From NCBI GenBank assembly GCA_903926385.1, contig CAIYIS010000031.1, positions 1 to 36,547 on the forward strand: DNA of 36,547 bases, written 5' to 3'. The notes below the pieces were generated by a model. It did not search any database and was not told the DNA's origin. It saw nothing but the letters and a program-made list of their open reading frames with translations. The stretch comes from an uncultured Bacteroidota bacterium. Its GTDB lineage: Bacteria > Bacteroidota > Bacteroidia > 2-12-FULL-35-15. Positions within the stretch are counted from its first letter, which is position 1. Each line of letters starts with the position of its first letter. The position numbers and the translations under genes are program-made. Shown piece by piece: positions 7,858-12,959 of the stretch.

Positions 7858-8616
7858 TTATTTCCCCATTTCCACTCGTTGCGACTGCAAAAAGCGAATA
7901 ACATTTTCCATATTTAAGTCCTGAGGTTTGTATTCTCCAATATTTAAACTGCACACAAAACCCCATACTTCCAAAATTTCTTTCGAAGAAATAGAATACG
8001 ATGCGTACGTTTTATTGTCGGAATGAAACTCGAATGTGTCGCCCGATTTTTTCTTTTCGCGATACAGCCGTTTGTAAACCACACCATCGTTTTTGGTTAG
8101 TATAATATAGGTTTGTCCGTCTTTTATTTCGTTCAGCGATTCGGTATATTTCCCAATCACAATGGTGCCGTCTTTTAAAGGAGGCATCGAATCTCCTTTA
8201 ATGGTAAAGGCTCTGTGCTTGCCTACAATTTTAAAGGGCAAATTCATTACCGGCAAATCTTCGATAAATTGAGGGTCGGCATAGCCGTTCAGATAGCCTG
8301 CCATAGCTTTTACTGGCACCACTTCTATCATGTCGTTATTGTCTTTATCCACTTTCACCGGAAACAGAATTCGGTTCTTACCTATTTTCATTAACGCTTC
8401 GGGGTCGGTTTTAGAGAGGTCGCCTCTCACCAGTGCATCAATAGATACATTAAAGAAATCGGCAATAACCACCAGTAAATCGTAAGGCGGTTCGGCTCTC
8501 CCTTCTTCGTACGAACCCAATCGGGAACGGTTAATCTCGAGTTTTTCGGCTAATGTTTCTTGCGAAAGCTTTTTGAGGTCTCGCAGAACCCTTATGTTTG
8601 TTGCTATTTTCGACAT
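7858..8616 (-). CDS. XRE-S24 repressor (LexA/CI/UmuD-like, self-cleaving)
   Basis: The ATG at 8616 (MSKIATNIRVLR) gives 252 residues. The frame is open to 8712, but those extra residues are encoded by the promoter and operator DNA. Residues 5-65 form an XRE helix-turn-helix (LSQETLAEKLEINRSRLGSYEEGRAEPP). Residues about 100-230 form an S24 peptidase fold: Ala106-Gly107 in KAMAGY is the likely autocleavage site, Ser143 in KGDSMPP the nucleophile, and Lys182 in VVYKRLY the general base. Proteins of this class are cleaved when RecA filaments form on damaged DNA, releasing target promoters. It probably represses its own operon and the divergent dinB-dnaE operon through two 17-bp sites at 8617-8656. 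It is the likely local equivalent of LexA. Confidence 0.88.
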   Translation of the reverse strand: MSKIATNIRVLRDLKKLSQETLAEKLEINRSRLGSYEEGRAEPPYDLLVVIADFFNVSIDALVRGDLSKTDPEALMKIGKNRILFPVKVDKDNNDMIEVVPVKAMAGYLNGYADPQFIEDLPVMNLPFKIVGKHRAFTIKGDSMPPLKDGTIVIGKYTESLNEIKDGQTYIILTKNDGVVYKRLYREKKKSGDTFEFHSDNKTYASYSISSKEILEVWGFVCSLNIGEYKPQDLNMENVIRFLQSQRVEMGK

Positions 8617-8656
8617 TGCTAAATATTTTGGCACAAATATACTAAATATCTTAGTA
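8617..8656. promoter_or_regulatory. Two tandem 17-bp operator-like sites between divergent operons
   Basis: Site 1 is TGCTAAATATTTTGGCA (8617-8633) and site 2 is TACTAAATATCTTAGTA (8640-8656). They agree at 13 of 17 positions and each is partly palindromic (TGC/GCA ends in site 1, TACTAA/TTAGTA arms in site 2). Their starts are 23 bp apart, about two helical turns. Site 1 touches the start of the S24 gene. Site 2 overlaps the -7 boxes of both divergent promoters. They are natural candidates for binding by the S24 repressor. Confidence 0.6.
8634..8641 (-). promoter_or_regulatory. -7 box of the S24 repressor operon
   Basis: TATATTTG on the minus strand, an exact TAnnTTTG match, 17 nt before the ATG at 8616 and wedged between the two operator-like sites. 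Confidence 0.55.
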
Positions 8657-8662
8657 ATTTTG
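8655..8662 (+). promoter_or_regulatory. Probable -7 box of the dinB-dnaE operon
   Basis: TAATTTTG on the plus strand matches TAnnTTTG and overlaps the right end of operator site 2. A TTTG at 8627-8630 lies 24 nt upstream, slightly wide for a -33 element. The 5' leader to the ATG at 8815 would be about 145 nt. Confidence 0.4.
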
Positions 8663-8814
8663 GAGCGCGAAAAGAAAGTTTTTTTCTTTTCCTGTTTAAA
8701 AATCAACCGCATTATCTATATCAGGGGTCTGCTTTCAATAATAGAATAAACACAGCCATGGTTATTACATAATTGAGACGCCCCGATATACGATGTGCAA
8801 AAACACCTTCTGAA

Positions 8815-9993
8815 ATGAGCAACCGTTCTATAATGCATATCGACCTGGATACTTTTTTTGTTTCGGTAGAACGACTGAAGAACTCGCAACTGGCAGGAAA
8901 GCCTGTTCTGGTAGGCGGTACCAGCGACCGAGGTGTGGTGGCATCGTGCAGTTACGAGGCGCGCAAGTTTGGCGTACACTCCGGAATGGCGATGCGAATA
9001 GCACGGAGAATTTGCCCGGAAGCTGTGCTGGTAAAGGGAGATCATGAGGAATACAGTAAGTGTTCGAAACTAGTAACCGATATCATAAAGGAGAGAGTGC
9101 CTCTCTACGAAAAAACTTCGATAGATGAGTTTTATATTGATTTAACGGGGATGGATACGTTTTACGGTTCGTATAAACTGGCTACCGAGGTGAGGCAGGA
9201 AATAATACGAGAAACAGGGTTGCCCATTTCGTTTGCCTTAAGCACCAACAAAACAGTTGCGAAGGTTGGTACTGGCGAAGCGAAACCCAATGGACAGAAT
9301 GAAATTCCGAGCGGAACAGAAAAAGGTTTTCTCGCTCCTTTATCGATAAAGAAAATTCCGATGGTAGGCGATAAATCATACGAGCTGCTGAGGAGTATGG
9401 GTGTGGCCAAGATACACACCTTGCAGGAAATGCCTATAGAACTTATGGAGCAAGTGATGGGTGCAAACGGCAGGCTGATTTGGAGAAAAGCAAATGGTAT
9501 TGACAATACTCCTGTGGAGCAATACAGCGAACGAAAGAGTATAAGCACAGAACGGACATTTGATAAGGACACAATAGATGTGAAAGGGCTGAAGGATTTG
9601 CTGGTGAGTATGACCGAGAAGCTGGCTTTTCAGTTGAGGAGTAAGGGCGATTTGATGAGTTGTGTTACGGTAAAAATAAGGTATTCTGATTTTAATACAT
9701 ATACTATACAGGCACACCTTGGGTACACTTCGCTAGACCATGTAATAATAGAGAAGGTAAAGGAATTGTTTGATAAACTGTATCAAAAGCGGATGCTTAT
9801 CCGATTAATCGGAGTTCGGTTTAGCGGGCTGGTGCAGGGTAACTATCAATATAATTTGTTTGAGGATAACATGAAACAGTTGCAACTATACGGGGCAATG
9901 GACAAAATGCGGACGAGATACGGAGAGAATGCTGTAGTTCGGGCCTCGGGGTTAGGCCTAAAACTAAAAAACTTTAATCCTTTTAAGGGATAA
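8815..9993 (+). CDS. dinB: Y-family translesion DNA polymerase (Pol IV/DinB type)
   Basis: The ATG at 8815 gives 392 residues; an in-frame TTG at 8773 is rejected as it adds residues unlike the family. The palm catalytic acids are present: D10 in HIDLDTFF, and D104-E105 in TSIDEFYIDL. A steric gate/fingers segment SCSYEARKFGVHSGM follows the first motif. The helix-hairpin-helix thumb includes IKKIPMVGDKSYELLRSMGV, followed by the little-finger domain. Near the C-terminus Q345-Y-N-L-F349 fits the QxxLF beta-clamp-binding motif. Because the acids are intact, this is an active polymerase rather than an ImuB-like catalytically dead subunit. It is followed 20 nt later by a DnaE-type polymerase gene, and diverges from the S24 repressor, so it is probably damage-inducible. 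Confidence 0.93.
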   Translation: MSNRSIMHIDLDTFFVSVERLKNSQLAGKPVLVGGTSDRGVVASCSYEARKFGVHSGMAMRIARRICPEAVLVKGDHEEYSKCSKLVTDIIKERVPLYEKTSIDEFYIDLTGMDTFYGSYKLATEVRQEIIRETGLPISFALSTNKTVAKVGTGEAKPNGQNEIPSGTEKGFLAPLSIKKIPMVGDKSYELLRSMGVAKIHTLQEMPIELMEQVMGANGRLIWRKANGIDNTPVEQYSERKSISTERTFDKDTIDVKGLKDLLVSMTEKLAFQLRSKGDLMSCVTVKIRYSDFNTYTIQAHLGYTSLDHVIIEKVKELFDKLYQKRMLIRLIGVRFSGLVQGNYQYNLFEDNMKQLQLYGAMDKMRTRYGENAVVRASGLGLKLKNFNPFKG

Positions 9994-10013
9994 AAAAACG
10001 AACAAATGAATTC

Positions 10014-12959
10014 ATGTTACTCAATTGTCATACATATTATAGTTTTTGCTACGGAGTATTTACTGTTGACGAATTGTTGGCTGAAGTAAAGCGCAAAGGT
10101 TATTCCTCCTTTGCACTTACTGATATTAATAATACTTCCGCTTGTATAGACATGGTTCGTTCGGCAAATGCACAAGGTATTAAACCAGTATTAGGCATCG
10201 ATTTCAGAAATGGTGTGAAACAGCAATACGTTGGTATCGCCATTAATAATAAAGGATTCAAAGAACTCAACGAACACCTTTCGTATCATTTACATCATCA
10301 TCTCCCGTTCGAAAACGAAGCTCCTGCTTTTAACAATGCGTATATTATTTATCCCTCGTCCGCTTACAGTGGTTGGCAATTGCGAGAAAATGAGTTTATA
10401 GGTGTTTCGGTAAAAAGTGTTTCTAATTTAGTTTTTTCTCCCGTCAGAAAACACCTTAACAAACTTGTCATTTTGCAGTCGGTAAGTTTTGCTGATAAGC
10501 GACAATTTAATGCACACAGGCTATTGAGGGCAATTGACAAAAATCAATTGTTAAGCAAATTGCCTGTTGACGAACAAGGAACGACAGAGGAAATCATGCT
10601 CCCCCGAAACGAATTGCTGGCGGCTTATGCCGAATACCCAAGTATAATAAGCAATACCGAAGCATTGTTGAATGATTGCAAAATAGAATTTGTGTATGGT
10701 AAGTTTTCCAATAAAAATAAAAAGCACTATACCGACAGCGTTGCCAATGACCTCCTGAAATTAAGAAGTGAATGTGAAGTGGGATTAAAATATCGCTACA
10801 CCGAACCAACCAAAGAAGTACTTGCTCGGGTGGAAAAGGAATTGCAGATAATAGAGCAGATGAATTTCTCTTCCTACTTTCTGATCAATTGGGATATTAT
10901 AAAATACGCACAGCACAAAAATTACTATTGGGTGGGTAGAGGCAGCGGAGCAAACAGCATGGTGGCTTATCTGCTTCGCATTACCGATGTAGATCCTATT
11001 CAGCTTGATTTGTATTTCGAACGTTTCATTAATCCGGCACGCAGCAACCCTCCTGATTTCGATATTGATTTTTCGTGGACAGACAGAGATGATATCACTC
11101 GTTATATCTTTAACACCTTTGGCCATAAACACACCGCATTGGTGGGTGCTTACAACACCTTTCAGCAGGATGCTGTGGTTCGCGAATTAGGAAAAGTGTT
11201 TGGATTACCTCCTGACGAGATTGATAAATTACAATCTCCTTCCAAATTTCCTGATACGGACGACCTAGGAAAGTTAGTGCTTCGTTACAGTGAGCTCATT
11301 CATGGTTTCCCGAGTCACTTAAGTGTTCATTCCAGTGGGATTCTCATTTCCGAAGAAACAATTAGTAGTTATTGCGCCACTAACATGCCTCCTAAAGGAT
11401 ACCCTACCACTCAGTTTAGTATGCTGGAAGCCGAAGATATTGGCTTGGCCAAATTCGACATTCTTAGTCAGCGCGGATTGGGCAAAATAAAAGATGCCGT
11501 TGACATTATTAAGGAGAATAAAAATACAGAGATAGACATACACGATATCAAGAAATTTACATCTGACGATAATGTGAAAGTCCTGCTACGAAAAGGAAAA
11601 ACAATAGGTTGTTTTTACGTAGAATCTCCTGCCATGCGAATGTTGTTGGCTAAATTAAATGCTGATGATTACTTACGCTTGGTAGCAGCTAGCTCCATCA
11701 TTCGCCCGGGAGTAGCCAAAAGCGGAATGATGCGGGAATATATTCTTCGTTATCGCGATGAGAACAGACGTAAAACGGCAAGAGAGGAGTTGCCCGAATT
11801 ATATGATTTGCTCGAAGAAACTTACGGAGTAATGGTTTATCAGGAAGATGTAATTAAGGTGGCGCATTTATTTGCCGGATTAACATTAACCGAAGCCGAT
11901 TATTTACGAAGGGGAATGTCGTGGAAATTCAAACAGCGAAACGAGTTTAATTTAGTTCGTAAAAAGTTCTTTGAAAATTGCAGAAAGAAGAATCATAACG
12001 AAAAAACTATTCTTGAAATCTGGACACAGATAGAAAGCTTTGCCAACTTCGCCTTTTCCAAGGGGCACTCGGCAAGTTACGCAGTAGAGAGTTATCAGGC
12101 TTTATATTTAAAAACATATTTTCCTTTGGAGTATATGGTTGCTACGCTCAACAATGGCGGAGGGTTTTACCGAAAGGAATTGTATCTGCACGAAGCCCGT
12201 ATGCATAACGGCACAATTAAACCTCCTTGTGTGAACAACAGCGATGTAATATGCATTATTAAAGATACAACCATTTATTTAGGTTTAAACCTGATTGCTG
12301 AACTGGAAGAACATCATGTTGTAACTATTATAAAGGAACGTAAGCAGAACGGCCTTTTCACCGACCTTCACAATTTCATAAAACGTGTTCCCATTTCGCT
12401 CGAACAAATTCGTTTGTTGATTCGGGTGGGTGCGTTTAGTTTTACAACTAAAAACAAAAAAGAACTCTTGTGGGAGATATACATGCTAATTAATCCTTTA
12501 AAAAAGCCGGAGAAAGTTGCCGAATTATTTGAAGTGAAACCTCCGAGTTGGAAATTGCCAAAGCTTGAAGACAATAAACTGGATGATGCTTTTGATGAAT
12601 TGGAGCTATTGGGTTTTCCGCTCTGTTCTCCTTTCGAAATGCTGAAAGACAAACTACCCGCAACAGCTACCGCAAAGGAGTTGAGGAACTCTATCGGCAA
12701 AACAGTAAGCATAGTGGGATATCTGGTAACATATAAAAACACGGCTACATCCAAAGGCGACCGAATGTGTTTCGGTACATTTACTGACACAGAAGGGATG
12801 TGGATTGACACCGTTCATTTTCCTCCTTCCCTTAAACAATTTCCGTTTATTGGTCCGGGATGTTATCTGCTAACAGGAAGAGTAACGGATGAGTTTAGTT
12901 TTGTAAGTATAGAAGTAAGCGAGATGCAAAGATTGGATACCGCGAATAGAAGAACTTGA
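10014..12959 (+). CDS. dnaE2: DnaE-type (C-family) DNA polymerase, short, error-prone-type
   Basis: 981 residues, shorter than the usual replicative DnaE (about 1,150 or more). The N-terminus is a PHP-like domain, but its metal motifs are degenerate: HTYYS instead of HxHS, and LTDINN instead of TDH. The polymerase core has the catalytic PDFDIDF (Asp348, 350, 352), the fingers segment GRGSGANSMVAYLL, and later YGVMVYQEDV and FAFSKGHSASYA, both classical C-family signatures. The C-terminus carries helix-hairpin-helix and OB-fold segments (SIVGYLVTYKNTATSKGDRM). It is cotranscribed with dinB in a repressor-controlled cluster, as DnaE2/ImuC polymerases are elsewhere. It is therefore probably a translesion polymerase rather than the main replicase. 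The name dnaE2 is by analogy. Confidence 0.88.
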   Translation: MLLNCHTYYSFCYGVFTVDELLAEVKRKGYSSFALTDINNTSACIDMVRSANAQGIKPVLGIDFRNGVKQQYVGIAINNKGFKELNEHLSYHLHHHLPFENEAPAFNNAYIIYPSSAYSGWQLRENEFIGVSVKSVSNLVFSPVRKHLNKLVILQSVSFADKRQFNAHRLLRAIDKNQLLSKLPVDEQGTTEEIMLPRNELLAAYAEYPSIISNTEALLNDCKIEFVYGKFSNKNKKHYTDSVANDLLKLRSECEVGLKYRYTEPTKEVLARVEKELQIIEQMNFSSYFLINWDIIKYAQHKNYYWVGRGSGANSMVAYLLRITDVDPIQLDLYFERFINPARSNPPDFDIDFSWTDRDDITRYIFNTFGHKHTALVGAYNTFQQDAVVRELGKVFGLPPDEIDKLQSPSKFPDTDDLGKLVLRYSELIHGFPSHLSVHSSGILISEETISSYCATNMPPKGYPTTQFSMLEAEDIGLAKFDILSQRGLGKIKDAVDIIKENKNTEIDIHDIKKFTSDDNVKVLLRKGKTIGCFYVESPAMRMLLAKLNADDYLRLVAASSIIRPGVAKSGMMREYILRYRDENRRKTAREELPELYDLLEETYGVMVYQEDVIKVAHLFAGLTLTEADYLRRGMSWKFKQRNEFNLVRKKFFENCRKKNHNEKTILEIWTQIESFANFAFSKGHSASYAVESYQALYLKTYFPLEYMVATLNNGGGFYRKELYLHEARMHNGTIKPPCVNNSDVICIIKDTTIYLGLNLIAELEEHHVVTIIKERKQNGLFTDLHNFIKRVPISLEQIRLLIRVGAFSFTTKNKKELLWEIYMLINPLKKPEKVAELFEVKPPSWKLPKLEDNKLDDAFDELELLGFPLCSPFEMLKDKLPATATAKELRNSIGKTVSIVGYLVTYKNTATSKGDRMCFGTFTDTEGMWIDTVHFPPSLKQFPFIGPGCYLLTGRVTDEFSFVSIEVSEMQRLDTANRRT

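Follow-up and report, generated by a model that had tools for sequence, protein, structure and literature searches.

Introduction

A repressor of the kind considered here has been described in Bacteroidetes and named non-canonical LexA (Sanchez-Osuna et al. 2021; PMC8565304). According to the text of that paper, a representative binds CTAA-N5-TTAG, as seen by EMSA with mutants, and induction by mitomycin was recorded in relatives by RT-qPCR. The size of the regulon varies, the wider SOS regulon may hold recA, recN, umuDC and ruvB, and the evolutionary change of LexA operators is discussed as an issue. The same text describes diverged regulators in the Weeksellaceae, such as that of E. anophelis with the palindrome TTAC-AAATT-GTAA, and its authors link this divergence to paralogy. 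In E. coli, small RNAs are tied to LexA-regulated loci, namely SymR (PMC1891008) and agrA/agrB with dinQ (PMC3567139). SymR and agrA/agrB are reported to act on toxin genes, and the RNA element described below is likened to them by its link to a LexA locus only.

The locus analysed here lies in a 36,547-nt stretch of DNA from an uncultured Bacteroidota bacterium, referred to as the window, and its features are collected in Table 1. It resembles the CTAA-N5-TTAG group, as presented in the text of PMC8565304, in combining an HTH_3 domain with an S24 peptidase, in the Ala-Gly, Ser and Lys residues, in carrying the motif in its own promoter, and in the adjoining error-prone polymerase with the motif upstream of it. 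Since the right palindrome of the window is an exact copy of the published CTAA-N5-TTAG, the repressor and operator belong to an already known kind. Unlike that group, the present one has two sites at a fixed 23 bp, CTAT/CTAC variants that go with changes at residues 35 and 41, and a structured RNA alongside; neither this fixed spacing nor the link between operator and HTH nor the RNA turned up in the passages of PMC8565304 consulted. With the Weeksellaceae regulators of the same text it has in common a diverged palindrome built on the same dyad-spacer plan and an error-prone polymerase close by but, in contrast to the paralogy proposed there, the change from CTAA to CTAY is seen here within one genus, among the lexA copies that match best, and mostly in both operators. 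What the locus adds to the phage-type LexA of Bacteroidetes is threefold: a double operator of strict spacing shared by a wide range of relatives, two residues whose identity goes with operator specificity, and a small RNA that may be under SOS control.

Table 1. Features of the lexA-dinB region, with positions numbered from the first letter of the window.
Feature	Position	Strand	Remarks
HTH-S24 repressor, non-canonical LexA type, 252 aa	7858-8616	minus	Ala106-Gly107, Ser143, Lys182
Left (lexA-proximal) predicted operator, TGCTAAATATTTTGGCA	8617-8633		core CTAA-N5-TTGG; abuts repressor start codon
-7-like box TATATTTG, repressor promoter	8634-8641	minus	between the operators; overlaps right one by 2 bp
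Right (lexA-distal) predicted operator, TACTAAATATCTTAGTA	8640-8656		exact CTAA-N5-TTAG
-7-like box TAATTTTG, divergent RNA/dinB promoter	8655-8662	plus	right edge of right operator; 2-bp overlap
Conserved structured RNA element	8708-8800	plus	imperfect hairpin, apical GCCATGGTT; downstream of plus-strand promoter
Y-family DNA polymerase (DinB type, DNA polymerase IV)	8815-9993	plus	PF00817, PF11799
DnaE-type DNA polymerase III alpha subunit homologue	10014-12959	plus	Pfam/homology

Paired palindromes and promoters

The palindromes are placed between the HTH-S24 repressor gene (7858-8616, minus strand) and dinB-dnaE (8815-12959, plus strand). The left one abuts the ATG at 8616, the repressor start codon, and dinB starts 158 bp past the right 17-mer, or 161 bp past the right core. 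A preliminary description, made from the sequence of the window, had reported these two 17-mers (8617-8633 and 8640-8656), identical at 13 of 17 positions and with starts separated by 23 bp, all of which was reproduced. It had also ascribed dyad symmetry to each of them, and this holds for the outer arms. Those of the right site (TACTAA/TTAGTA) are complementary at 6/6 pairs, a perfect 6-bp inverted repeat with a 5-bp spacer and an exact CTAA-N5-TTAG core at 8642-8654, while those of the left site (TGCTAA/TTGGCA) are complementary at 5/6 pairs and the core at 8619-8631 has one mismatch (TTGG). The symmetry does not extend to the central 5 bp, which are asymmetric in both sites.

The -7 consensus of Bacteroidetes promoters is TAnnTTTG, and both TATATTTG and TAATTTTG are taken here to fit it. 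These boxes, on the minus and plus strands respectively, each overlap the right site by 2 bp, in agreement with the earlier account. Among 35 regions scanned, 33 bear operators (window included), and in 11 of these, a minority, TANNTTTG is found directly past the operator.

The repressor and adjacent polymerase genes

The repressor matches HTH_3 (PF01381, 47.5 bits) and Peptidase_S24 (PF00717, 42.8 bits), both above cut-off, and the canonical LexA winged-HTH domain (PF01726) is absent among its Pfam matches at E ≤ 0.001. It is a single-copy gene in its own genome at E ≤ 0.001. The ORF list extends it upstream to 8712, but the shorter start (8616) is favoured because the N terminus is conserved in relatives. 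In the PDB, CylR2 and regulators like it align with the HTH region, and position 35 presumably corresponds to a base-contacting position of the 434 repressor. Residues A106, G107, S143 and K182 are invariant in 17/17 aligned repressor proteins. By analogy with PMC8565304 and with S24 peptidases in general, A106-G107 would be the cleavage site and S143/K182 the Ser-Lys dyad. The dnaE-type gene probably forms one operon with dinB, which it also follows in relatives L081, L083, L094, L096, L099, L108 and L110.

Conservation of the double site

Conservation was examined in 81 lexA loci, that is, the window and the best 80 of 271 relatives from named genome contigs. The 81 loci are mutually related and 31 resemble the genus of the window; the 80 relatives are nearly all from uncultured Bacteroidetes/Bacteroidota assemblies (L177 is titled 'bacterium' only). 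The best pair of CTA-N7-TAG sites was scored over the 140 nt that precede the matched start, with dinucleotide shuffles at spacing 23 as controls. A double site at exactly 23 bp with at least 10/12 fixed bases was best in 75/81 loci against 8/1620 shuffles, and with at least 11/12 fixed bases the figures were 70/81 and 0/1620. In 57 of the 75 loci scoring at least 10, a distance of 1-2 bases separates the left core from the matched start of the gene. The pair is thus conserved in orthologous intergenic regions which, together with the match to the published CTAA-N5-TTAG, upholds the earlier proposal that the sites are operators of the adjacent S24 repressor.

The six exceptions are of different kinds. 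The pair is degraded in L138, has a spacing of 22 in L169, and in L150 is placed further out, at 23 bp but beyond the 140-nt stretch scored. L151, L152 and L155 have the outer arms TGATGA/TCATCA. These arms recur in L261, of the same lineage, where the inner arms are normal throughout and the repressors read RARLASYEEGR.

A homologue search in the order covered 36 genomes, all of one genus, of which 34 had a repressor match at E ≤ 1e-20. In a sample of the class, the repressor family was found in 176/247 genomes; 17 of the 22 newly returned loci could be parsed and 16 of these 17 score at least 10, although several look identical to earlier loci and the set is not independent. Among 20 distant homologues (from 20 genomes, some with the same family code), the 23-bp pair was present at 11/12 or better in three (L279, L281 and L291), so the double-site layout belongs to part of the family.

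Operator variants and HTH residues

The fourth base of the half-site (CTAx) was tallied against HTH residues 35 and 41 over 75 loci and 300 half-sites, leaving out L138, L150, L151, L152, L155 and L169. Proteins with Ala41 have A at this base in 123/124 half-sites, while those with Asn41 have T or C in 100/100 (52 T, 48 C). Cys41 goes with A in 48/56 half-sites and with T in eight, and the 20 half-sites of Ser41 proteins are mixed (8 A, 8 C, 4 T). At residue 35, Ser is accompanied by A in 174/188 half-sites, Ala by T or C in 59/64, and Gly by T or C in 48/48. These figures suggest a simple two-residue correlate of operator specificity, in which Ser35/Ala41 would go with CTAA, and Ala or Gly35/Asn41 with CTAY.

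The change of operator type from A to T/C is seen in L024-L053 and L102-L107, together with the HTH residues 35/41. A tree built from the C-terminal part only places four operator-type changes on the best tree. Two independent pairs are supported, both in the same direction for residue 41 (sign test, p 0.5), and with so few independent events the link of residues 35/41 with base 4 stays below significance. Both operator types occur within one genus, a point of interest for operator evolution, and two genomes carry one of each: L146 (G002) and L162 (G029), both with Ser41, have one CTAC and one CTAA operator.

A structured RNA element beside the operators

Between the right operator and dinB lies an element with the apical sequence GCC[A/G]UGGUU. 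It is present in 28 of the 34 same-genus genomes with a repressor match, including genomes where dinB is absent. Twenty-two of the 28 were detected at E ≤ 1.3e-6 by a model (R1), one at 0.035, and five, divergent members that R1 misses, by their core sequence and location. Of the 26 elements then known, 14 served to build R1, the scores of these 14 not being independent; the element of the window, with E 1e-15, is among them. Every matching genome gave one R1 match (119 candidates were scored per genome), each beside the repressor gene, apart from two genomes in which the same hairpin is also weakly matched on the opposite strand.

A search over 0.9-1.5 kb in G002, G004, G006 and G029 did not reveal the core pattern, nor did one beside the distant homologue of G025; in G010 the corresponding stretch is partly N. 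Written as DNA, the core GCC[A/G]TGGTT does not occur in up to 700 nt beside 49 loci (L150-L198) or beside the 17 parsed class-sample loci. Outside the genus, R1 returned four weak matches in 395 class genomes under strict filters; these are without the GCCATGGTT core and look like chance. Rfam 15 gave no match for window positions 8500-9000 (E up to 1) nor for 12 loci at the gathering threshold, and sub-threshold matches only for two divergent members (18.2 of 85 bits and 17.7 of 80 bits). Nothing resembling the element was found in the titles and abstract openings of open-licence papers.

The mean folding z of the elements is -3.2 (n=28), and the native halves average -27.9 kcal/mol compared with -19.9 kcal/mol for swapped halves. 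There are weak folders among them: L036 and L039 are no better than the swapped mean, and the z values of L051 and L052 are +1.0 and -0.5. A MAFFT consensus structure of 26 elements was weak (8 pairs, -2.46 kcal/mol) and was replaced by a hand-placed structure on 14 of the 26. In this 14-row alignment the paired columns hold 242 Watson-Crick, 21 G-U and 2 A-C cells. Folding energy does not tell the strand, plus being lower in 14/28, but the excess of G-U over A-C (21 vs 2) favours the plus strand, in a register that was itself picked from plus-strand folds. Covariation in the 14 sequences is modest, with 2 double-changed pairs against 1.1 in shuffles (71/500 as high). With the partner slid by -1 there are 4 double-changed pairs, but 58.8% of cells pair, compared with 90.4%. 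The comparison of native with swapped folding is the stronger evidence for a structure. The apical loop is self-complementary (CCAUGG, or CCGUGG with G-U pairs), which would suit dimerisation or pairing with a target mRNA.

The surroundings of the element vary among relatives. In G024 there is a second double site next to the RNA, besides the lexA one. G001 has a double site between lexA and the RNA, and its lexA-side operator is degraded. By eye, the gene that follows the RNA in G008 (L080, 733-1569) resembles a BRO-N/DinD-type protein, and an apparently related BRO-N/DinD-like ORF piece seems to sit between repressor and RNA in G001.

Proposed regulatory model

At a probability of about 0.92, judged from sequence comparisons, the palindromes serve the adjacent non-canonical LexA as a double operator, and this repressor would control its own gene and the error-prone polymerase. 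For this organism we infer binding as well as repression, induction and, if present, cooperativity, along the following lines. Each site would be bound by one repressor dimer, the distal one upstream of the repressor -7 box and touching the -7 box of the divergent transcript, and the proximal one with the lexA -7 box on one side and the start codon on the other. Both sites together would shut both promoters, giving autoregulation as well as repression of the RNA element and dinB-dnaE. DNA damage would lead to RecA-stimulated self-cleavage at Ala106-Gly107, so that the repressor is released and both sides are induced. The CI protein of phage lambda is likewise an S24-type self-cleaving repressor with multiple neighbouring operators between divergent promoters (OR). 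Here there are two sites rather than three, and the genes concerned are those of repair polymerases, not phage lytic genes.

That the palindromes are chance AT-rich symmetry, or terminators, is barely credible. Single matches to the loose consensus are indeed as common as in shuffles of the window (4 matches at up to two mismatches vs 3.58 expected, not significant) and rarer than in the reversed control of the genome, but the conservation of position, arms and spacing reaches beyond the genus, and the arms change together with the HTH; the conservation of the double site already refutes this reading. The fixed 23-bp spacing, seen by the preliminary description as a layout for cooperative binding, fits such binding, but the gap is also just large enough for a -7 box. 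The spacing could then reflect promoter geometry, with dimers that bind independently and each block one promoter, a reading rated at somewhat less than even odds. In 23 of the 33 operator-bearing regions (window included) the gap is filled by a -7-like CAAANNTA, and 23 bp corresponds to 2.2 helical turns (taking 10.5 bp per turn), which is not a whole number. Against this, -7 boxes usually tolerate shifts of a few bp, whereas the spacing is exactly 23 in 75/81 loci with one clear 22 (L169), and 23 bp is also kept before a relocated dinB (see below).

For the RNA, the double operator may govern a hitherto undescribed LexA-repressed, structured small RNA gene arranged back-to-back with lexA, to which we give an even chance; if true, the SOS response of the genus includes an RNA arm, retained where the link to dinB is lost. 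A cis-acting 5′ leader of the dinB mRNA, with no separate small RNA, appears rather unlikely, even though the element precedes dinB in the window and eight of the relatives, a terminator was not found in those eight by a scan that is insensitive, and six more loci have another Y-family polymerase downstream (five by tblastn, and G016 by eye). What counts against a mere leader is that 11 of the 28 RNA loci show no Y-family polymerase in the 3.8-7.2 kb downstream by tblastn (two other loci end too soon), and that in five of these 11 the RNA is flanked by a -7 box and a strong intrinsic terminator. These five dinB-less loci (L102, L103, L104, L106 and L107) have, in this order, a double CTAT/CTAC operator, TATGTTTG, the RNA core and an intrinsic terminator, and the predicted transcripts are 157-193 nt long if they begin 10 nt past the operator and end at the T-run. 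The five terminators were spotted by eye and then folded, an automated terminator scan having found few. Under the small RNA reading too, the element of the window would probably be co-transcribed with dinB.

Searches for further regulon members

The preliminary description had offered the consensus TnCTAAATATnTTnGnA for finding the rest of the regulon, and in this it proved unsuitable: the ATAT of the spacer lacks conservation, the fourth half-site base differs from lineage to lineage, and a whole-genome scan with the 17-mer at up to one mismatch gave 25 matches, fewer than the 35 in the reversed control, so that it was rejected as a genome probe. CTAA-N5-TTAG alone was also discarded, being present at 39 places in the own genome compared with 160 for its reversed control. 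Of the other exact sites, 35/38 are inside ORFs of at least 80 aa according to a crude ORF caller, which likewise assigns the site of the window to an ORF that it extends too far. One exact site is 129 bp before the start of a gene resembling ssb by eye, yet lies inside another ORF. A degenerate double pattern (6+6 fixed bases, up to one mismatch) was rejected as well, since it occurs at four places in the own genome and 12 in the reversed control, and is therefore specific only in combination with context.

The recA gene is on contig C22, which has no exact CTAA-N5-TTAG site, and a looser scan of the recA locus gave no match upstream of recA and one match beyond it. As recA is without an upstream site, the regulon may be very small. 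In G014, dinB (identified by eye) is located away from lexA and has a 23-bp double CTAY site of its own upstream, so the two sites can accompany the target gene. Further mismatch-free 23-bp double sites occur in G029 (contig C68, L251) and G017 (contig C1, L238), the latter just upstream of an ORF by eye, and these two are possible extra regulon members.
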